A DNA stretch of 54,083 bases, taken from assembly GCA_009886115.1 (NCBI GenBank), contig VFJJ01000176.1, forward strand, positions 1-54,083, read 5' to 3'. A program made the position numbers and the translations under genes. Source of the DNA: Actinomycetota bacterium (GTDB lineage: Bacteria > Actinomycetota > Acidimicrobiia > IMCC26256 > VFJJ01). Of this stretch, positions 12,642 to 23,466 are shown one piece after another (within the stretch, counting starts at the first letter, position 1; each line of letters begins with the position of its first letter). The notes under the pieces are model-generated. The model did not search any database, had not been told where the DNA came from, and saw nothing but the letters and a program-made list of their open reading frames with translations.

Positions 12642-13610
12642 GTGGCGGTGAGCGACACGGCGACGATGGGCACGCCATCGTGCACCGACCCGGTGGCGCT
12701 GCACGAGTGGTATCCGATCAGCGCGCTCGTCGAGATCACACCGGGCCTCGTACATCGCACACAACTCCTCGGCGGCGCCATCAGCTACACCCGCACGCCA
12801 GGCGGCAGCCGCCCTGTGGTGTGGCCGTCGGGAGGCGAGGCCAGCGGAGCCGAAGTCGACGGTTTGGCCGTCGATCATCAGCTACCCGTGCGGGTGAAGT
12901 TCGGATACGTCTGGACGACGCTGGGCCGGCCCGAGCACGAGCTGTTCGACATCGCCGAGTGCGATGAGGCCGATCGCCGGATCCAGAACGGCGGCAGCAT
13001 CATGGTGGCCACGTCGGCGCCCCGGGCCATCGAGAACTTCCTCGACATGGGCCACTTCCCGTATGTGCACACGGGAATCCTCGGTGCCGAGCCCCGCACC
13101 GAGGTGCTCGAGTACGACGTCGAGGTCACCGACGAGGAGATCCTCGCCACACGCTGCCTGTTCTTCCAGCCCCAAGCGGCGCTCAGCGCCAGCGACGGGC
13201 AGATGACCGAGTACGTGTACCGGGTGCCGCACCCGTACTGCGTGATGCTCTACAAGTCGGTCCCGACCGACGCCAGCCGCATGGACGTGATCGCCCTGTT
13301 CTGCCAGCCGATGACCGAGGAGCGGGTGCGGGCCCACAACTTCTTGTGCATGGTCGACGCCGTCAACTCCGACACCGCGCTGAAACGCTTCCAGCAGCTC
13401 ATCTTCGGCCAGGACAAGCCCATCCTCGAGAACCAGTCGCCCAGGCGGCTCCCCCTCGACCCCCGGGCCGAGACGCCGATCAGGGCCGACAAGAGCTCGA
13501 TCAGCTATCGCCGTTGGCTGAGCGCCAAGGGCCTGACCTACGCCGTCATCCCAGCGACCGCCCCGTCCCCCACGCCCGCTCCCACGCCCGCTCCGACGCG
13601 GTCGAGCTGA
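12642..13610 (+). CDS. Rieske-less ring-hydroxylating oxygenase alpha-type subunit (NdmC-like)
   Basis: 322 residues from GTG 12642 (GGAGGG nine bases upstream). The C-terminal mononuclear-iron domain is intact: ENFLDMGHFPYVHTG (131-145) gives the His138/His143 ligands and bridging Asp135, and a later FGQDKPILENQSP supplies the Asp ligand. The N-terminus keeps the outline of a Rieske domain (EWYPISALVEITPG ... VKFGYVWTTLG), but both cluster loops, C-x-H and C-x2-H, are gone. A short Pro/Gly-rich stretch replaces them. It therefore needs electrons from a Rieske centre elsewhere; the next gene encodes one fused to a reductase. The same split occurs in NdmC, the caffeine-pathway N7-demethylase oxygenase of Pseudomonas. 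Confidence 0.8.
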   Translation: MAVSDTATMGTPSCTDPVALHEWYPISALVEITPGLVHRTQLLGGAISYTRTPGGSRPVVWPSGGEASGAEVDGLAVDHQLPVRVKFGYVWTTLGRPEHELFDIAECDEADRRIQNGGSIMVATSAPRAIENFLDMGHFPYVHTGILGAEPRTEVLEYDVEVTDEEILATRCLFFQPQAALSASDGQMTEYVYRVPHPYCVMLYKSVPTDASRMDVIALFCQPMTEERVRAHNFLCMVDAVNSDTALKRFQQLIFGQDKPILENQSPRRLPLDPRAETPIRADKSSISYRRWLSAKGLTYAVIPATAPSPTPAPTPAPTRSS

Positions 13611-13621
13611 GCCGGACCGGA

Positions 13622-15505
13622 GTGGAACCCGACCCGAGCACCTCCTGGTATCCGGTCGCCCGAAGCGACGATCTCCCGCTGCGCCATGTGTTCCAAGGGG
13701 AACTGCTGGGCCGCGAGCTGGCGATCTGGCGGGCCGACGACGGGTTCGTGAACGTCTGGGAGAACCGGTGCCTGCACCGTGGGGTCCGACTGTCGATCGG
13801 GTTGAACGAGGGCCGTGAGCTCCGGTGCCAGTACCACGGATGGCGATATGCCAACCGCACGGCTGGCTGCACGTACATCCCCGCGCATCCGGCCGACGCG
13901 CCAGCACGCGTCATCTGCAACGTGACCTTTCCCGCAGTCGAGCGCTACGGCCTGGTTTGGACCTGCGACTCGCCGGGCGGCGTGGCTCCGGGCGACGGGC
14001 CGCCGGTGCTGGCCGCGCTCGAAGCGGCGGCTCCCCTCGGTTTGCGCAACCTGCCCGTCAACGCCGAGCCGTCCACCGTGCTCGACGAGCTCGCGGCGTA
14101 CGCCTTTGTTCCCACCGGGCTGCTGGCCCAACGCACCGCCCACGACCGCCCGGTCGCCGGCTCCGCGACTCTGGGTACGGAGGAACTCGGCGCGGAGGTG
14201 AGCGTCACCGATCGAGGTCACTCGTGGATCGAGCTCACCGCCCGGATGGGTGAAGCCGCGAGCAGGGTGGTGCTGTTCGTACAGCCCGTCGACTCGGCCC
14301 GTTCGGTCGTCCGGGGCGTCCTGGCCGGCGGTGCCGACGGTGCCGACGGTGCCGACGGTGCCGGCGTGCACTCTCCTGAACGCGACCAGATGGCCGTGCT
14401 GCGCCATCATCACCGCGAGCTCTCACGGCTACGAGACGCGATCGAGGATCGAGCGGCGAGACGGCCCTCCCCCGTCCCGATGACACCCCGCCTCCAACAG
14501 GTGCGGCTGCGCCCCGCAGAATCCGCTCTTGAGCACGATCGGCGTGACGGCGGGCGCCGGACGGGGCTGCGGGTCAGCGTGGCTCGGCGCTGGGACACCG
14601 CCGACGCAATCGTGGCCTTCGAGCTCCGTCAGCTCGACGGGCTGCTCCCGACACCCCGGCCCGGTGCTCACATCGACGTGGAGCTCCCCAACGGGTTGGT
14701 CCGGCAATATTCGCTCGTCAACGGTCCGGGAGAAACGGACCGTTACCTCATCGGTGTGAAGCGCGAGCCCGCCTCGCGCGGCGGATCGGCTTGCCTGCAC
14801 GACACGGTGATCGTCGGTGACGTGCTCGCCATCTCAGAGCCCCGCAACAACTTCCCGCTCCGGCGCGACTCCTTCCGCACGATCCTTATCGCCGGCGGGA
14901 TCGGCATCACGCCATTGCTCTCGATGGCCCAGGCGCTGCACTGGAGCGGCCACACCTACGAGCTCCACTACTTCGCGCAATCGGCCGGGCACGTGGCGTT
15001 CACGGAGATCCTCGATTCACTCGGGCCGGACGTCACGACCCATCTCGGCCTCGACCCGTCGGGGACGGGGTCCGTGCTCACGCGATTACTGTCCGACCCC
15101 GAGGACGGCGGCCACGTGTACGTCTGCGGCCCCGGGCCGATGCTCGACGCCACCAGGAACACGGCCACGACTGCGGGTTGGCCCGACCATGCCGTGCACT
15201 TCGAGTACTTCACCAACGCCACGGAGATCGACTCCAGCTCCAGCTTCGAGGTCGAGTTGGCCCGCAGCGCGCTGACGCTGCCCGTTCCCGCGGGATCGTC
15301 GATCATGGACGTGTTGCGCGCCAACGGCGTAGCCGTGGCGTCGTCGTGCGAGCAGGGCGCCTGCGGAACCTGCCTGACGGCGGTGATCGCGGGCGAGCCC
15401 GACCACCAGGACGTGTATCTCAACGCATCCGAGCGTCGAGCCGGCGACCGGATGGCCATCTGCGTCTCCCGATCACGCTCGCCTCGGCTCGTGCTCGACA
15501 TCTGA
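13622..15505 (+). CDS. Rieske-FNR-ferredoxin fusion reductase (NdmD-like)
   Basis: About 627 residues from GTG 13622, 11 bases after the oxygenase stop. The Rieske domain comes first, with ligands C50-x-H52 and C69-x2-H72 (NRCLHRG, CQYHGW). A variable region of about 190 residues with a GAD repeat follows. Then comes an FMN/NAD reductase (RQYSLVNGPGE, GGIGITPLLSMA, VYVCGPGPML). A plant-type ferredoxin ends the protein, with C576/C581/C584/C614 (SCEQGACGTC). The usual Rieske-oxygenase reductase has only the last two modules. The additional N-terminal Rieske domain is the feature that defines NdmD. It should pass electrons from NADH to the Rieske-less oxygenase and possibly to the complete ones nearby. 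Confidence 0.85.
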   Translation: MEPDPSTSWYPVARSDDLPLRHVFQGELLGRELAIWRADDGFVNVWENRCLHRGVRLSIGLNEGRELRCQYHGWRYANRTAGCTYIPAHPADAPARVICNVTFPAVERYGLVWTCDSPGGVAPGDGPPVLAALEAAAPLGLRNLPVNAEPSTVLDELAAYAFVPTGLLAQRTAHDRPVAGSATLGTEELGAEVSVTDRGHSWIELTARMGEAASRVVLFVQPVDSARSVVRGVLAGGADGADGADGAGVHSPERDQMAVLRHHHRELSRLRDAIEDRAARRPSPVPMTPRLQQVRLRPAESALEHDRRDGGRRTGLRVSVARRWDTADAIVAFELRQLDGLLPTPRPGAHIDVELPNGLVRQYSLVNGPGETDRYLIGVKREPASRGGSACLHDTVIVGDVLAISEPRNNFPLRRDSFRTILIAGGIGITPLLSMAQALHWSGHTYELHYFAQSAGHVAFTEILDSLGPDVTTHLGLDPSGTGSVLTRLLSDPEDGGHVYVCGPGPMLDATRNTATTAGWPDHAVHFEYFTNATEIDSSSSFEVELARSALTLPVPAGSSIMDVLRANGVAVASSCEQGACGTCLTAVIAGEPDHQDVYLNASERRAGDRMAICVSRSRSPRLVLDI

Positions 15506-15524
15506 TCTCGCGGGAGCCCCGACC

Positions 15525-16214
15525 ATGATGAAGATCTACGACTACGAGCTGTCGGTGAACTGCTACAAGCAGCGACTGTTGCTGGGGATCCTCGGGGTGC
15601 CCTACGAGTCGATTCCCGTCGATTTCTTTCCCGGCTGGGAGCACAAGGGCGAGGCGTTCGCCGAGATCAACCCGCTCGGCCACATTCCCGTCATCGACGA
15701 CGACGGCTACATCCTGCGCGATGCGCAGGCCATCCTCGTGTATCTGGCGCTGCGTTACGACCCGAGTGGCCTGTGGTATCCCGTGACCGATCCCCGGGTT
15801 GCCGGTGAGGTGGCCTCGTGGATGGCCTTCGCCGAGGGCACCACCAACACCGCGTCGGCCGCCCGTCTGCACGACACGCTGGGCTACCCGTTCGACATCG
15901 ACACCGTGAGAGCCGGAGCGCAGAAGCTGTTCCGGGTGCTCGACGACCACGTGTGGTTCCACGAGCAGCAGGAGCGTCCGTGGGTGGCGTCAGCGCCCCA
16001 TCCCACCATCGCCGACCTGGCCCTGTTCCCCGACGTGATGCTCTCCGAGCAGGGCGGCATCAGCCTGCTCGACTACCCGGCCCTGCGTCGCTGGACCGAT
16101 CGGGTCAAGCACATCCCGGGCTTCACGGTGATGTCGGGGATCTTCCCGGCCCCCGCCGGCGCAGCCCCCGCCGGCGCAGCCCCCGGCGGCGCGACCGTTG
16201 GGCGCCCGCGATGA
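15525..16214 (+). CDS. Glutathione S-transferase-like protein (NdmE-like)
   Basis: 229 residues with a thioredoxin-fold N-domain (MKIYDYELSVNCYKQRLLLGILG, then NPLGHIPVIDDDG) and an all-helical C-domain (LHDTLGYPFDID ... HPTIADLALFPDVM). A Pro/Gly/Ala-rich tail follows. Actinobacteria generally lack glutathione, so a structural role is plausible. In Pseudomonas, NdmE, a GST-like protein, is needed to assemble the NdmC/NdmD complex, and it is encoded beside them as here. Two adjacent ATGs (15525, 15528) are possible. The stop overlaps the next start by ATGA. Confidence 0.85.
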   Translation: MMKIYDYELSVNCYKQRLLLGILGVPYESIPVDFFPGWEHKGEAFAEINPLGHIPVIDDDGYILRDAQAILVYLALRYDPSGLWYPVTDPRVAGEVASWMAFAEGTTNTASAARLHDTLGYPFDIDTVRAGAQKLFRVLDDHVWFHEQQERPWVASAPHPTIADLALFPDVMLSEQGGISLLDYPALRRWTDRVKHIPGFTVMSGIFPAPAGAAPAGAAPGGATVGRPR

Positions 16215-17317
16215 CCGTCGACGAGTGGTTCCCCGTGGCGGCTGACGATCCGGCGACCACCGACGACGCAGCCCCGGATCCGATCGCCGACGAGTGGTTC
16301 CCCGTGGCGACAGCCACGGAGGTGACGCCGGGGACGGTCCATCCGTTCCAGCTGCTCGACGAACGGTACGTGCTCCTCGCCGCCAACGACGCCAACGACG
16401 CCAGCGTGACCGTGGTGCGCGACACCTGTCCCCACCGGGGCGCCCAGCTCAGCCTGGGGCGCTTCGACGGCGATCGCCTCGAGTGCGCGTATCACGGATG
16501 GCAGTTCGACACCTCGGGACGCTGCCGGCACCAACCGGCCCATCCCGATGCCACGCCGTCCGAGGCTTCCAACCTCAGGCCGGTGCGGGTGAGCCGGGCC
16601 TACGACCTGTACTGGGTCTGCCTGGGCGACGAGCCCCGCAACCTGCCGTACTACCCGGCCTTTCACCTCCACCCCGGCCGCACCACGATCTGCGCGCCCA
16701 AGCGGGTGCGAACGTCGGGCCCGCGCATCGTCGAGAACTTCCTCGACATGGCCCACTTCCCGTTCGTGCACGGGGGTTACCTGGGGACGGCGCCCCACAC
16801 CGAGGTCCGCGACCACGAGATCGCCAGCGTCGACGGGGAGCTGAGGGCCATCAATTGCACCTTTTGGCAGCCCCAGCCCGGTCCCGGCGCCGGCCAGGGT
16901 GGCGACGTGGAGTACACCTACGGCGTCTCGCACCCGTACGCCGCCAGGCTGGTGAAGATCCCGAGCGAGGCCGACGGGGGCGCCGCCGAGGCTTTCGAGA
17001 TCCTTCTGGCCGTGAGCCCGGAGTCGGAGCTGTCGTGCCGGGCCTGGATGCTCACGACTGCGCACAGCCCGTCGGCCGATCTCGATTCCTTCAACGAGTT
17101 CGGCGCGCTGATCTTCGGCCAGGACGTCGCAGTCGTCGAGTCCCAACGCCCGGCGCGACTCCCCCTCGACCCCCGGGCCGAGCAGCACCAACGAGCCGAC
17201 CGGACGAGCCTGGCCTACCGCCGCTGGCTCGTCGCCCGAGGCATCCGCTACGGCACGTCCCGCAACGAGCCGGAGCGCGGCGGGACGGGCCCGACGGGTT
17301 CGGCTCGCAAGCCGTGA
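16211..17317 (+). CDS. Rieske (2Fe-2S) ring-hydroxylating oxygenase alpha subunit, NdmA/B-like
   Basis: 368 residues. The Rieske domain is complete (C73/H75 in DTCPHRG, C92/H95 in CAYHGW). The mononuclear iron domain has NFLDMAHFPFVHGG (176-189: D179, H182, H187) and a late FGQDVAVVESQRP. Its C-terminal half is close in sequence to the Rieske-less protein at 12642, so the two are paralogs. The first 31 residues contain DEWFPVA twice (residues 4-10 and 27-33), encoded by a direct DNA repeat. ATG 16211 overlaps the GST-like gene's stop. Single-subunit oxygenases of this group carry out N- or O-demethylation. Confidence 0.88.
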   Translation: MTVDEWFPVAADDPATTDDAAPDPIADEWFPVATATEVTPGTVHPFQLLDERYVLLAANDANDASVTVVRDTCPHRGAQLSLGRFDGDRLECAYHGWQFDTSGRCRHQPAHPDATPSEASNLRPVRVSRAYDLYWVCLGDEPRNLPYYPAFHLHPGRTTICAPKRVRTSGPRIVENFLDMAHFPFVHGGYLGTAPHTEVRDHEIASVDGELRAINCTFWQPQPGPGAGQGGDVEYTYGVSHPYAARLVKIPSEADGGAAEAFEILLAVSPESELSCRAWMLTTAHSPSADLDSFNEFGALIFGQDVAVVESQRPARLPLDPRAEQHQRADRTSLAYRRWLVARGIRYGTSRNEPERGGTGPTGSARKP

Positions 17318-17405: not shown

Positions 17406-18542
17406 ATGACCCATGTGAACCTTCCCAAGCGGCGCCGCGTGCTGAGTGCGCTGGCGCTGGTCCTGTCGATCTCGCTGCTGGCCGCGGCCTGCGGCGACGA
17501 CGACGACGACGACGCCACCTCGACCGAAGCTCCCACCGACACCACCGCAGCGGCCGCCACCGACACGACCGCAGCCGCGGATCCGGCGACGGCCACCACC
17601 GAGGCTGCAGCGGCGGCTCCCGCCAACTCCGACGCCCCCAAGCTGGCGATCGTCTACTCGGCCGACTGGCTCGATGGGTCGTGGGGCCAGGCGGCGTTCG
17701 ACGGGGCCAACGGCCTCCTCGAGTCTGGCGTGATCTCCGACCTGCTGCTGCAGGAAAACGTGCCGCCGGGCGCCGAGGCGCAGCGTGCACTGCGGGCTGC
17801 TGCCGAGGACGGCTTCAACCCGATCATCGCCCACTCGTTCGACTACGGCGACGACGTGAAGGCAGTGGCCGCCGACTTCCCCGAGACGATCTTCGTGTAC
17901 GCCGGGGGCTTCGGCGACGTGGCCGCCAACGTGGGCGACTACGACCAGCCCTTCTACCAGGCGTCGTACCTGTCGGGCATCCTGGCGGCCGGCGTGCAGG
18001 GCGAAGGCAACGTCGCCGGAGCCGGCGGCTTCGAGATCCCCGCCTGCTACTCGATGTACGAGGCCTACCTGGCTGGTGCCCAGGCGGTGCTGCCCGACAC
18101 GACCGGCAGCTTCGTGGCCGTGGGCGACTGGTACGACGTGCAGCTGGCCAAGGAAGCCGCGCTCGGTCAGCAGGCCGACGGCGCCACGATGTTCGTGGGC
18201 TGCGGTCAGGGCCCGACGTTCGGCCAGATCGAGGCCGCCAACGACACCGACGGAGTCTCGACGGGCTACGTCGGCGACATGGCCGAAGTGGGCCCGTCGG
18301 TCGTGTCGTCGTTCATCTGGCGCCTCGACAAGGTCTTCGAGCTGATCGTGGCCGACGTGGCCGCGGGCAAGACCGAGGCGCAGTACTACTCAGTGCCACT
18401 CGCCGCCGGCGGTATGGATCTGGTCATCTCCGATGCCTGGGCCGACCAGATCCCGGCCGACACCTTGGCCCTGTTCGAAGAGCGCCTGGCGGCCATCCAG
18501 GACGGAAGCTTCGAGGTTCCCTTCGTTCCCGAGGCTGGGTGA
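17406..18542 (+). CDS. BMP-family ABC transporter substrate-binding lipoprotein
   Basis: 378 residues. A lipoprotein signal with lipobox LAAAC (Cys29) is followed by an acidic then Thr/Ala-rich linker (30-78). The Med/BMP ligand-binding domain runs from LAIVYSADWLDGSWGQAAFDG to the end (IQDGSFEVPFVPEAG). BMP proteins such as PnrA bind purine nucleosides; others bind related heterocycles. No good Shine-Dalgarno is visible before ATG 17406. It lies 88 bases after the oxygenase, on the same strand. Confidence 0.9.
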   Translation: MTHVNLPKRRRVLSALALVLSISLLAAACGDDDDDDATSTEAPTDTTAAAATDTTAAADPATATTEAAAAAPANSDAPKLAIVYSADWLDGSWGQAAFDGANGLLESGVISDLLLQENVPPGAEAQRALRAAAEDGFNPIIAHSFDYGDDVKAVAADFPETIFVYAGGFGDVAANVGDYDQPFYQASYLSGILAAGVQGEGNVAGAGGFEIPACYSMYEAYLAGAQAVLPDTTGSFVAVGDWYDVQLAKEAALGQQADGATMFVGCGQGPTFGQIEAANDTDGVSTGYVGDMAEVGPSVVSSFIWRLDKVFELIVADVAAGKTEAQYYSVPLAAGGMDLVISDAWADQIPADTLALFEERLAAIQDGSFEVPFVPEAG

Positions 18543-18605: not shown

Positions 18606-18670
18606 TTGCCGGTCGGTCGTGAGGTGGCAGAGACTTCCGAGATGCCATGTGTATGGGGGGCCCGAGCCTG

Positions 18671-20194
18671 ATGAGGAGCGAGGCCCTCGTCGAGATGCGG
18701 GGCATCCACCGGCGCTTCGGTGAGACCCACGCGCTGGCGGGGGTCGATCTTTGCCTGCGCGCCGGGGAGATCCATGCGCTGCTCGGCTCCAACGGGGCGG
18801 GCAAGACCACGCTGGTGCGGATCCTCGCCGGGCTCGACCGTCCCGACGAGGGCACCGTCACCGTGCTCGGAGAACCCGTCACCAAGTTCGAGCCCAAGGT
18901 GCTCCGGGCGGCCGGCGTCGCCCTCGTGCAGCAGCACTTCACGCTGGTCCCCACGCTGTGCGCATCGGAGAACCTGGTGCTGGCTCGACCCGACGGCTGG
19001 CGCGTGCCCCGTCAACGCTCCGCACGCGCCCGTCTGGGGGCACTCGTCGAACGGACCGGGCTGACGGTACGCGACGACGTTCCGGCCGGCGCGCTCTCGG
19101 TCGGAGAGCAGCAACGCCTGGAGCTGCTGCGGGCCCTCGACGCCGACGCCCGGGTGCTCCTGCTCGACGAGCCGACCGCGGTCCTCACCGATCAGGAAGC
19201 CGAGGCGCTGCTCGCGGTGTGCCGCACGCTGGCGGCCGAGGGACGGGCGCTGGCGTTCATCACGCACCGGCTGGGCGAGGTCTTCGCCGGCGCCGACCGC
19301 GTGACCGTGCTGGCCGAGGGCAGGGAAGTACTGAGCGACGAGCTCGTGACGCAGCACGACCGAGCCGGACTGGCCAGTGCGATGATCGGCCACCAGAGCT
19401 CGGGCGCGTTCACCCATCGGGGCGGACGGGCCGGCGATCGCGCCGCCGGACGCCTCGTGGTCTCGGGCCTGCGCCTCGGACGCTTGCACGGCCTCGACAT
19501 CTCCGTCGCCAGCGGCGAGATCGTCGGCGTCGCCGGCGTCGACGGCAACGGCCAGGCCGACCTCGAGGCTGCGCTCTCGGCCCGGGTGGCGCCGGAGTCC
19601 GGGACCGTCGCCGTCGACGGTGCGGTGCTCGAGCCCGGCGACCCGCGCGGTCGGCGCACCCGGGGCTTGGCGTACATCCCGTCCGACCGCTACCAGTGGG
19701 GACTCATCCGGGCCATGGACCTGGCCGACAACCTGGAGCTGGGCCGGGTTCCCCGGTGGCGGGCTCGACGCTCGCAGCGGCGGGCGGCGAGCGCACCGAG
19801 CCTCGGTCACTGGGACGTTCGCACGAGCGGACCGGCGGCCCGCGCCGCCACGCTGTCGGGGGGCAACGCCCAGAAGCTGGTGCTGGCCCGGGAGCTCGAC
19901 GGGCGTCCCCGGGCCGTGCTGGCGTGCTACCCCACTCGGGGTCTCGACCCGACGGCGGCCGACACGGTCGCGGCCCGGCTCGTGGCCTGCGCCGACGACG
20001 GCGCCGGCGTGTTGTGGATCGGCGCCGAGCTCGACGAGCTGCTGGCCGTGGCCGACCGCATCGTCGTGCTCGCAGGCGGACGTCTGCTGGGACCGTTCTT
20101 CGCCCCGTACGACCGTGCCGCCATCGGCCTGGCCATGGCCGGCGTGCACGACGGCGAGGCCCTCCAACCTGTCGAGGCGGTAGGCGACCGATGA
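18671..20194 (+). CDS. BMP-type ABC transporter ATPase, two ABC domains
   Basis: 507 residues from ATG 18671; an in-frame ATG at 18647 would add eight. Domain 1 has Walker A GSNGAGKTT, signature LSVGEQQRL and Walker B LLLDEPTAVLT. Domain 2 has the degenerate Walker A GVDGNGQ and signature LSGGNAQKL, with CYPTRGLDP in place of a canonical Walker B DEP. This asymmetry is normal in sugar- and nucleoside-type tandem ATPases. It overlaps the permease start by ATGA. Confidence 0.92.
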   Translation: MRSEALVEMRGIHRRFGETHALAGVDLCLRAGEIHALLGSNGAGKTTLVRILAGLDRPDEGTVTVLGEPVTKFEPKVLRAAGVALVQQHFTLVPTLCASENLVLARPDGWRVPRQRSARARLGALVERTGLTVRDDVPAGALSVGEQQRLELLRALDADARVLLLDEPTAVLTDQEAEALLAVCRTLAAEGRALAFITHRLGEVFAGADRVTVLAEGREVLSDELVTQHDRAGLASAMIGHQSSGAFTHRGGRAGDRAAGRLVVSGLRLGRLHGLDISVASGEIVGVAGVDGNGQADLEAALSARVAPESGTVAVDGAVLEPGDPRGRRTRGLAYIPSDRYQWGLIRAMDLADNLELGRVPRWRARRSQRRAASAPSLGHWDVRTSGPAARAATLSGGNAQKLVLARELDGRPRAVLACYPTRGLDPTAADTVAARLVACADDGAGVLWIGAELDELLAVADRIVVLAGGRLLGPFFAPYDRAAIGLAMAGVHDGEALQPVEAVGDR

Positions 20195-21324
20195 CCGTCG
20201 AGACGGCCGCGACCCGATCAACCACGCCCGGCGCGAGCTCGGGCTCGGGCCCCGGCTCGGGCCCCGGCTTCGCGGCCCGTGTCGCCGAGCGGGCCGGTGC
20301 CGGCGGCCCCGTCGTCTCGATCCTGATCCCCGTGCTCGCGGTCGTCGCGGCGCTGGCGGTGGGTGGGGTGCTCATCGCCTTCGACGGCTCGAACCCGCTG
20401 TCGGTGTACCGCGAGATCGTCAGCGCTGTGCTCACGGGGAACCGTGGGTTCTCCGATACGGCGACCGCAGCCACGCCGCTCATCCTCATCGGCCTCGGTT
20501 ACGCAATCGCCTACCGGGCCCGGGTCTTCACCATCGGCGGCGAGGGCCAGTACCTCATCGGTGCGCTGGCCGGCACCGCCTGGGTCACCGGAGCGGGACT
20601 TCGCGACCTGCCCCGCTGGCCGCTCATCCTCAGCGGCGTCGTGGTCGCCACGCTCGCCGGTGCTGCCTGGAGCGGTCTGGCCGGATGGCTGGGCGTGCGC
20701 TTCGGTGCCAACGTCGTGATCTCCAGCCTGATGCTCGTCTACATCGCCGACTCGGCGCTGGCCTGGGGAGTGCGAGACGGCATTCGCGACCCCGAGTCGT
20801 TCGTGAACCAGAGCCGCCAGATCGGCCGGGCCAGCCTGCCCGAGCTGCCGGGCACGACCACCCACATCGGCTTCGCCATCGCCATCGCCATCGTGCCCTT
20901 GGCGGCAGTGCTGATGGCCCGGCACCGCGGCGGGTTCCGCATCACGGCGTACGGCCACAACCCGAGCGCTCTCGACGCCAACGAGGTCTCCAACCGCACG
21001 GTGATCATCCTCGTGATGGTGATCGCCGGGGCGCTGGCCGGCCTGGCGGGCATCGTCGAGACGACCGGCGTGAACGGACGGCTGGGCGCCCAGGCGTCGG
21101 TCGGCTTCGGGTTCCAGGCCATCATCGTGGCCCTGCTCGGACGGCTCAACCCGGTGGGGGTGGGCATCGCCGGACTGGGTATGGCCGGCTTGACGATCGG
21201 GTTCGAGTCGGCCCAGCGCGAGTTCGACCTGCCGTCGTCGTTGGTGGGCGTGATCACCGCGCTGATCGTGGTGTTCGTGGTGGTCGGCGACGCGCTGGCC
21301 GGTCGAGCCCGGGGAGATCGGTAG
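20191..21324 (+). CDS. BMP-type ABC transporter permease 1
   Basis: 377 residues. A disordered Ser/Gly N-terminus precedes about nine hydrophobic segments. Motifs typical of nucleoside/sugar permeases are present: YRARVFTIGGEGQYLIGAL near 110, GANVVISSLMLVYIA, and the EAA-like GHNPSALDANEVSNR near 260. It pairs with the permease encoded next to form the channel of the importer. The stop is two bases from the next GTG. Confidence 0.9.
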   Translation: MTVETAATRSTTPGASSGSGPGSGPGFAARVAERAGAGGPVVSILIPVLAVVAALAVGGVLIAFDGSNPLSVYREIVSAVLTGNRGFSDTATAATPLILIGLGYAIAYRARVFTIGGEGQYLIGALAGTAWVTGAGLRDLPRWPLILSGVVVATLAGAAWSGLAGWLGVRFGANVVISSLMLVYIADSALAWGVRDGIRDPESFVNQSRQIGRASLPELPGTTTHIGFAIAIAIVPLAAVLMARHRGGFRITAYGHNPSALDANEVSNRTVIILVMVIAGALAGLAGIVETTGVNGRLGAQASVGFGFQAIIVALLGRLNPVGVGIAGLGMAGLTIGFESAQREFDLPSSLVGVITALIVVFVVVGDALAGRARGDR

Positions 21325-21326
21325 CC

Positions 21327-22196
21327 GTGGACGTCATCTTCAAGCTGGCGACCCTGGAGGCGGCGATCCGCCTGGGCGTCCCCGTGGCCCTGGCCGCGCT
21401 CGGCGCACTGGTGTCGGAGCGGACGGGTGTGCTCAACCTCGGCCTCGAGGGGATGATGCTCTCGGGCGCCCTCGGCGGCTACGCAGCCAACGAAGCGACG
21501 GGCTCGGCCTGGCTCGGCGTGCTCGCGGGCACGCTCATCGGTGCTGGGTGCGGAGCCATCCTGGCCCTGCTGGTGGTCACCGCCCGCGCCAACCAGGTCG
21601 TCACCGGGATCGCGTTCACGCTGCTCGCCCTGTCGGCCACCACCTACCTGTTCCAGCTCCGGTACTCGATCGGCGGCATCCCGCCCCGGGTCAACCGGCT
21701 CGACATGACGCCGCTGGTGCTGTTGACCCTCGCCTGTGTTGCCGCACTGTGGTTCCTGTTCAACCGCACCACCCTCGGGTTGGCGATGGGTGCGGTCGGT
21801 GAGGCTCCCGAAGCCGCCGATGCCTTGGGGTACAAGGTCGAGCGGCTGCGCTGGATCGCCACCATGATCGGCGGCGGTCTGGCCGGCCTCGGCGGCGCTG
21901 CACTCGTGTGCGGCCCGCTCGGACTGTTCATCGAGAACGTCACCGCCGGGCGTGGATGGGTGGCCCTGGCGCTGGTGGTGTTCGCCGGCTGGAAGCCCGG
22001 CGCAGCCGTGGCCGGAGCGATCCTGTTCGGCCTGTGCGACGCCGTGCAGCTGCGCCTGCAGGGCACCGCCACCGATGTGCCCTATGAGGCATTCCTCGCG
22101 CTGCCCTATGTCGTGACGCTGGTGGCGCTGGTACTCCGGGCCCGAGCCAGCCGCACCCCGGCCGCCCTCGGCGTGCCCTACGTGCGCGGCATGTGA
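21327..22196 (+). CDS. BMP-type ABC transporter permease 2
   Basis: 289 residues starting at GTG 21327. It has the paired-permease motifs ALVSERTGVLNLGLEGMML and GEAPEAADALGYKVERLR plus about eight hydrophobic segments. VLNLGLEG is the second-permease counterpart of TIGGEGQ in the first. It is the last gene of the plus-strand run that began at 11385. Confidence 0.9.
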   Translation: MDVIFKLATLEAAIRLGVPVALAALGALVSERTGVLNLGLEGMMLSGALGGYAANEATGSAWLGVLAGTLIGAGCGAILALLVVTARANQVVTGIAFTLLALSATTYLFQLRYSIGGIPPRVNRLDMTPLVLLTLACVAALWFLFNRTTLGLAMGAVGEAPEAADALGYKVERLRWIATMIGGGLAGLGGAALVCGPLGLFIENVTAGRGWVALALVVFAGWKPGAAVAGAILFGLCDAVQLRLQGTATDVPYEAFLALPYVVTLVALVLRARASRTPAALGVPYVRGM

Positions 22197-22248: not shown

Positions 22249-22296
22249 GATCGCCCGAAGCGGAGCGAGACACGTCACCGATCGCTTCGGGCGGTC
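22249..22296. terminator. Hairpin between convergent permease and Rieske genes
   Basis: CGCCCGAAGCG (22252-22262) pairs with CGCTTCGGGCG (22283-22293); flanking bases extend the arms to 14 with one mismatch. It overlaps the last codons of the minus-strand Rieske gene and can serve both converging transcripts. Confidence 0.65.
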
Positions 22297-23381
22297 CCGG
22301 TAGCGCCTGCAGCCACGGCCACGGCAGCGGCAACGGCAGCGGCGAGGTCGGCGAGGACGCGGCGCATCTCCAGGGTGATGCGGTCGGCCTTGGTGTGGAT
22401 CTCGGCCGTGGGATCGAGCGGTACGCCCTTGCGGTGCATGCGTTCGAGCAACGCCTGGTCCTCGACGGCTACGGCGAGCTGGAAATCGACGGCGCCCTGA
22501 CGAGCCTCGACGGTGTCGGCGATGTCGTTGCGGTAGTCGGTGCAGTACAGGCGCGTCGTGGTGGCGTTCACGGGCTGGTGGCAGAAGCTGATCGTGAGCA
22601 CGGCGTTCTCGGCCCGGTACTCGATGCGCAGGTACACGTGATGGGGCGGGGTGAACACGAACAGGTCGTGCCGGTCGACGAGCGCGAACTCCTCACCTGC
22701 GCCGTGCGAATCGGCCAACGCCTTGGTGGTGTGGGTGTGGCGCACCTCGAATCGCCAACCGTCCCGGTCGATCCGGTAGTCGGGCACGATCCGGTCGTCC
22801 AACGCGCCGAAGGTGGCGAGGTGCAGGTACGGGAAGTGGCCCTGGTCGAGAAAGTTGTCGGCCATCTGCGCCGCGCTGGCGTTCCAGTCGAGCACCGGTA
22901 AGGGGCAGTTGACGAACGTCGGATCGTCGTGCTCGGGCACGTGCGGAAGCCCGACGAGCGGCTCATCGAGCGCCAGCCACACGAGCCCCAGATGGTCGAT
23001 CGCACCGTGGGCCGGTCGGCACGAGGCCCGAGACGGGATGGGCGCCGTGGGCCCGATGGCCGGGATCTCGACGCAACGGCCGGTGGCGTCGAAGCGGTAA
23101 CCGTGGTAGCCGCATTCGAGGGTGCCATCGACGATACGGCCGGCCGACAACGGCGTGAACCGGTGCGGGCAACGGTCGGGGAACGCCGCCAGCACCCCGT
23201 CGAGCCGCACCACGCACCATCGTTCGCCGAGGAGCTCGACACCGACAGGCCCGTCCGCCACGTCCTCGCTGCGGGCCACCGGATGCCAACAGCGCCGCAA
23301 CGCCGGATGCTCGTTGGTGAACCAACGCTCGTCTCCGGAACGCGCGGTGAGACGATCGGCGGGGACGTTCTTCGGGGCCAT
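22275..23381 (-). CDS. Rieske (2Fe-2S) ring-hydroxylating oxygenase alpha subunit
   Basis: 368 residues from ATG 23381 (MAPKNVPADR). The Rieske ligands are C71/H73 (DRCPHRF) and C90/H93 (CGYHGY). The iron domain has NFLDQGHFPYLHLATFG (D179, H182, H187). A segment near the end (LERMHRKGVPLDPTAEIHTKADR) resembles the tails of the two oxygenases upstream. It is a further member of the same oxygenase group, transcribed toward the importer operon. It could share the fusion reductase at 13622, since no reductase of its own is adjacent. Confidence 0.88.
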   Translation of the reverse strand: MAPKNVPADRLTARSGDERWFTNEHPALRRCWHPVARSEDVADGPVGVELLGERWCVVRLDGVLAAFPDRCPHRFTPLSAGRIVDGTLECGYHGYRFDATGRCVEIPAIGPTAPIPSRASCRPAHGAIDHLGLVWLALDEPLVGLPHVPEHDDPTFVNCPLPVLDWNASAAQMADNFLDQGHFPYLHLATFGALDDRIVPDYRIDRDGWRFEVRHTHTTKALADSHGAGEEFALVDRHDLFVFTPPHHVYLRIEYRAENAVLTISFCHQPVNATTTRLYCTDYRNDIADTVEARQGAVDFQLAVAVEDQALLERMHRKGVPLDPTAEIHTKADRITLEMRRVLADLAAAVAAAVAVAAGATGTARSDR

Positions 23382-23466
23382 GGCACCATTCTGCTGCCGA
23401 CGGCGCCGATCGTGTGCGCTCGTCCACGCTGGGCGTCGACGGGCGCGCGTGTGGTCGAATGGCGTC

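Follow-up and report, generated by a model that had tools for sequence, protein, structure and literature searches.

An actinobacterial member of the NdmCDE family encoded beside a BMP-type importer, with a probable role in methylated purine use

An Actinomycetota bacterium of the class Acidimicrobiia encodes, on contig VFJJ01000176.1, an oxygenase without a Rieske domain, a reductase that carries such a domain as an N-terminal addition, and a GST-like protein; a complete Rieske oxygenase follows. This arrangement raises the questions of whether this is an NdmCDE-type enzyme and what it would act on. The same three components make up NdmCDE of Pseudomonas putida CBB5, an enzyme known from caffeine-degrading Pseudomonas that demethylates 7-methylxanthine (PMC4408171), and the Pseudomonas ndm genes are flanked by frmA/frmB (PMC4408171). 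A 2015 review lists Klebsiella pneumoniae and Pseudomonas sp. TJI-51 among the carriers of the closest ndmCDE homologues, and the other homologues, mainly in Sinorhizobium and Mesorhizobium, were of unknown function (PMC4408171).

The window, i.e. the whole analysed stretch of 54,083 nucleotides, contains the following genes, and Pfam domains and motifs confirmed the four (C, D, E and A) that a preliminary description had placed at 12642-17317.

12642..13610, + strand: C, Rieske-less mononuclear iron oxygenase of the NdmC type (322 aa; Pfam VanA_C)
13622..15505, + strand, start approximate: D, NdmD-type protein with an N-terminal Rieske domain, an oxygenase remnant lacking the iron site and a flavin/NADH/[2Fe-2S] reductase (by Pfam)
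15525..16214, + strand: E, GST-like protein of the NdmE type (GST_N_3, E=2.5e-11)
16211..17317, + strand: A, complete Rieske oxygenase (Rieske, E=5e-21, plus VanA_C)
17406..18542, + strand: BMP-family substrate-binding lipoprotein (PF02608, E=2e-22)
18647..20194, + strand: ABC transporter ATPase, double domain (PF00005, two stretches)
20191..21324, + strand: ABC permease 1 (PF02653, E=1e-29)
about 21327..22196, + strand: ABC permease 2 (homologue of permease 2 in the BMP importers of related loci, 34-45% identity)
22275-23389, - strand, start not fixed: a fifth complete Rieske/VanA_C oxygenase, convergent and just past the importer

The ATG of A overlaps the stop codon of E by 4 nt and the permease 1 gene overlaps the ATPase gene by 4 nt, and such short gaps or overlaps between the genes suggest one transcript. 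The BMP binding protein, double ATPase and two permeases together are predicted to form a nucleoside importer of the BMP/PnrA type. The convergent oxygenase lies on a long branch of the tree and is not close to A.

The oxygenase C, which starts at a GTG with an AGGAGG upstream, matched only VanA_C in Pfam (E=2e-20), with no Rieske match, and conserves the iron motif D135-x2-H138-x4-H143 together with D258. A family-wide motif scan gave the same picture, with the Rieske motif missing from all 32 C proteins and the mononuclear-iron motif present in all 32, using a pattern that accepts R at the first histidine; one C (L060:5089-6000) carries an Arg in place of this first iron-ligand His (ENFLDMGRFPFVH), either a real change or an assembly error. 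The AlphaFold model of C (pLDDT 84.9, pTM 0.83) matched Rieske oxygenases along their whole length, best the saxitoxin-pathway oxygenases SxtT/GxtA (E=3e-18) and then NdmA. By sequence too, the closest relatives of C and A with solved structures are SxtT/GxtA, although these form a separate lineage in the tree, have a complete Rieske domain and serve a biosynthetic role. An hhalign comparison of C with A covered 299 columns at a probability of 100, and revealed that C retains the strands framing the Rieske domain while the segment bearing both Cys-His pairs is absent. C is thus an oxygenase subunit with a mononuclear iron site and without a Rieske cluster.

The reductase D has no ATG near its start, and GTG 13622 is the likeliest start codon, with CTG 13607 or GTG 13346 possible. 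Within its 632-residue reading, Pfam detected a Rieske domain at residues 13-95 (E=4e-18), NAD_binding_1 and Fer2, i.e. a reductase of the phthalate dioxygenase type with the extra N-terminal Rieske domain that marks the NdmCDE type. The motif scan of 38 D proteins yielded the reverse of the C pattern, namely the Rieske motif in 38/38 and the mononuclear-iron motif missing from 38/38. Residues 14 to about 270 of D aligned with a complete-oxygenase profile at a probability of 99.9. Taken alone, the part of D that follows the Rieske domain scored 33.5 and 36.8 in hhalign against the oxygenase catalytic domain, whereas 60 column shuffles reached at most 18.8 and 23.5. As the structural model of D (pTM 0.58) is weak around the Rieske loops, with pLDDT below 50 at 56-65 and 86-103, the assignment of a decayed oxygenase rests on this profile comparison. 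On sequence grounds, C and D resemble two oxygenase subunits that degenerated reciprocally, C having lost the cluster-binding loops and D the iron site.

Two variants show the Rieske half and the reductase to be separable. In Rhizobium johnstonii (L131:8375-10523), the Rieske-plus-remnant part is a free-standing 216-residue protein, and neighbouring genes encode a Rieske-less C, a GST-like protein, an amidohydrolase and a BMP importer. The annotation of Cupriavidus sp. EM10 assigns the Rieske part and the reductase to different genes and places a formaldehyde dehydrogenase gene in the vicinity.

Kinship with NdmCDE was determined through proxies, i.e. plasmid-borne sets from K. pneumoniae SKGH01 and P. 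putida 15420352, which have C-D-E in the same order and belong to strains other than those named closest in PMC4408171 (K. pneumoniae WGLW2 and Pseudomonas sp. TJI-51), whereas the CBB5 proteins compared were NdmA, NdmB and the ferredoxin domain of NdmD from solved structures. The window C, D and E are full-length homologues of both proxy sets, with 42%, 34% (residues 14-632) and 48% identity to the Klebsiella proteins, respectively. In a 54-sequence tree, all Rieske-less proteins, including the window C and those of Klebsiella and P. putida, formed one clade (100/100), pointing to common descent of C with the NdmC-type proteins, and the D proteins formed one group by their Rieske domain (96/89). 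With the GST-like partner encoded adjacent, the full-length homology and the clade of C support the assignment of the cluster as an actinobacterial member of the NdmCDE family, so the NdmCDE-like character first proposed from domain content now extends to whole proteins. The D ferredoxin domain alone was rejected as an NdmD marker, because it matched 6laa (E=3.5e-21) about as well as NdmD 6icm (2.3e-20). The set differs from that of CBB5 in being actinobacterial, in its link to a BMP ABC importer, in the lack of an NdmA/NdmB partner in the window, and in the only 34-48% identity of its proteins to the Klebsiella proxy.

The fourth gene had been likened to NdmA/NdmB, a placement that the phylogeny did not bear out. 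Like the N1/N3-demethylases NdmA and NdmB, A is a complete oxygenase that has both a Rieske and an iron site and a VanA_C catalytic domain, but those two sit in another clade; A and three Acidimicrobiia relatives are instead the sister of the Rieske-less clade (98/95). The Klebsiella set adjoins an NdmB-like oxygenase, which groups with NdmB 6ICL at 100/99. In a urinary isolate of K. pneumoniae, an IncHI1B/IncFIB plasmid (L130:6779-12308) has an NdmB-like gene and C-D-E lying among insertion sequences.

A scan of GTDB confirmed 290 relatives of D, and the best 80 of the 290 belong mainly to Rhizobiales, Roseobacters, Devosia and Acidimicrobiia, with one from Dehalococcoidia. Adding to these 80 the window, two loci from S. 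meliloti and two from relatives of the class gave 85 loci, which collapsed into 49 groups when clustered at 85% D identity. E lies next to D in 48 of the 49 groups, and a Rieske-less C accompanies D in 44 by ORF calling and in four of the remaining five by tblastn, the exception being a Candidatus Microthrix bin (L104:9914-12412) with D and E and no C found in 10 kb upstream; the association of C, D and E is thus not a matter of chance. Antisense clusters arising from naive ORF calling in GC-rich DNA were spurious and were excluded from use. Two or more Rieske-less C genes occur in 17/49 groups, Alphaproteobacteria often having two, and A-type genes are rare. At the pSymA loci of S. meliloti, identity to the window proteins is 58-60% for the closest C, 55-57% for D and 63-67% for E, and a BMP importer is nearby. 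S. meliloti 1021 carries two such sets on pSymA (L041 and L042), both accompanied by a BMP importer. Rieske-less C genes stand in tandem there, two or three per locus, whereas the window has one C and a complete oxygenase, and at one of the two loci a formaldehyde dehydrogenase gene follows E. One S. meliloti 1021 set is near SHMT, PurU, BhcA-like and 2-hydroxyacid dehydrogenase genes.

For the possible substrate, neighbours within 4 kb (near) and at 5-10 kb (far) of the 85 loci were counted over nearly equal DNA lengths; the counts are approximate, since the loci include close relatives and the deaminases were assigned from clusters and motifs, with NCBIfam checks on representatives. S-(hydroxymethyl)glutathione dehydrogenase, whose representative exceeded the curated cut-off, was present near the set in 21/85 loci versus 0 far, in most of these 21 directly after E, and S-formylglutathione hydrolase in 10 near versus 0 far. 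Adenosine, adenine or guanine deaminases numbered 20 near versus 4 far, i.e. about five times denser near the set, and guanine deaminase and 8-oxoguanine deaminase at related loci scored above curated cut-offs. At one locus (L088:6143-16070), four adenosine-deaminase-like genes surround a single C-D-E set. The P. putida set is accompanied by HpxO and a nucleobase symporter, and the Klebsiella set by a symporter. BMP importer parts or permeases were found in about 31/49 groups, with a density near the sets not above the 5-10 kb level, as the importer itself spans that distance. A molybdenum enzyme near locus L109 was rejected as a xanthine dehydrogenase, because it scored above the cut-off for CO dehydrogenase.

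Genes for a purine deaminase, a xanthine dehydrogenase or formaldehyde disposal are absent from the window itself, and this evidence comes from relatives or from other contigs of the host. On such contigs, the host encodes a xanthine dehydrogenase (G000:C169:11732-13966; 827 bits, pucD cut-off 784) and an S-(hydroxymethyl)mycothiol dehydrogenase (640, cut-off 513). The latter, along with the Acidimicrobiia as nearest relatives of C and E, agrees indirectly but consistently with the earlier impression of an actinobacterial genome. A uricase was not found in the host genome, and inspection by eye of the listed ORFs of contig C169 at 6-20 kb yielded no obvious ureide-pathway genes.

With the importer adjoining the set, and with relatives beside purine deaminases and formaldehyde-clearing genes in numerous bacteria from soils and the sea, the enzyme probably demethylates imported methylated purines, and we assign a probability of roughly 0.65 to the cluster being an operon for uptake and N-demethylation of a methylated purine; an N-methyl purine substrate fits both the window importer and the purine-deaminase and formaldehyde genes of the relatives. 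The BMP-type ABC importer would bring in the base or nucleoside, and NADH would reduce the flavin of D, from which electrons would pass through its plant-type [2Fe-2S] cluster to its N-terminal Rieske cluster and on to the mononuclear iron of C. C would then hydroxylate an N-methyl group, the product giving the demethylated purine and formaldehyde, and E may hold C and D together. A, as a self-contained oxygenase, would probably use the same reductase to act on another methyl position, or else on a related substrate. Counting against a purine operon, the window lacks purine deaminase, xanthine dehydrogenase and formaldehyde genes of its own, no uricase turned up in the host genome, and some S. 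meliloti neighbours (PurU, SHMT, BhcA-like and a member of the trimethylamine methyltransferase family) point to general C1/methylamine metabolism. A search of the literature for similar systems that act on methylated purines or occur in rhizobia brought no additions.

The cluster could also be a true methylxanthine pathway for caffeine, theobromine or 7-methylxanthine as in Pseudomonas, in which A would demethylate at N1/N3 and C-D-E at N7, as the shared three-gene architecture and the full-length homology to NdmCDE-type proteins would allow; we consider this unlikely, given that A lies outside the NdmA/NdmB clade, that relatives adjoin adenosine, adenine and guanine deaminases, and that many carrier bacteria have, in our judgement, no evident methylxanthine supply. 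Somewhat less probable still is hydroxylation or dealkylation of another N-heterocycle, e.g. an N-alkyl triazine, a hydantoin or an N-methyl pyridine. Among solved structures, the one closest to the BMP binding protein is the periplasmic binding protein 6pi5 (E=2e-26), named for atrazine, which makes N-alkyl triazines or other heterocycles possible; the nearest NCBIfam importer models, below cut-off, are for a putative B6 transporter, and a caprolactamase-like hydrolase adjoins one related set (G272). The density of purine deaminases near the sets, and the guanine and 8-oxoguanine deaminases that exceed curated cut-offs, favour purines over such compounds. That C is inactive or structural and A the sole working oxygenase, fed by D, is very improbable, for although A has both metal sites and NdmD also feeds NdmA and NdmB (PMC4408171), the iron-site motif is kept in every one of the 32 C proteins examined, and C occurs with D in nearly all locus groups while A-type genes are rare.

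The preferred reading, uptake and N-demethylation of a methylated purine, gives a testable role to NdmCDE homologues that had none assigned outside the caffeine degraders, Sinorhizobium and Mesorhizobium included, by placing the set in Acidimicrobiia, Dehalococcoidia, Roseobacters and Rhizobiales and tying it to importers, purine deaminases and formaldehyde disposal, a context that suggests a common route for methylated purine use. The sister position of A to the Rieske-less clade, together with the decayed oxygenase fold in D, offers a concrete model for a two-site oxygenase split over two chains. Tentatively, and with odds somewhat against the two proposals holding jointly, NdmCDE-type enzymes may be mainly a widespread recycling route for methylated nucleobases from nucleic-acid turnover, such as methyl-adenines and methyl-guanines, from which caffeine use would be a late specialisation, and the split enzyme may stem from two oxygenase subunits that decayed reciprocally, one retaining the iron and the other the Rieske cluster, rather than from the transfer of a bare Rieske domain to a reductase.
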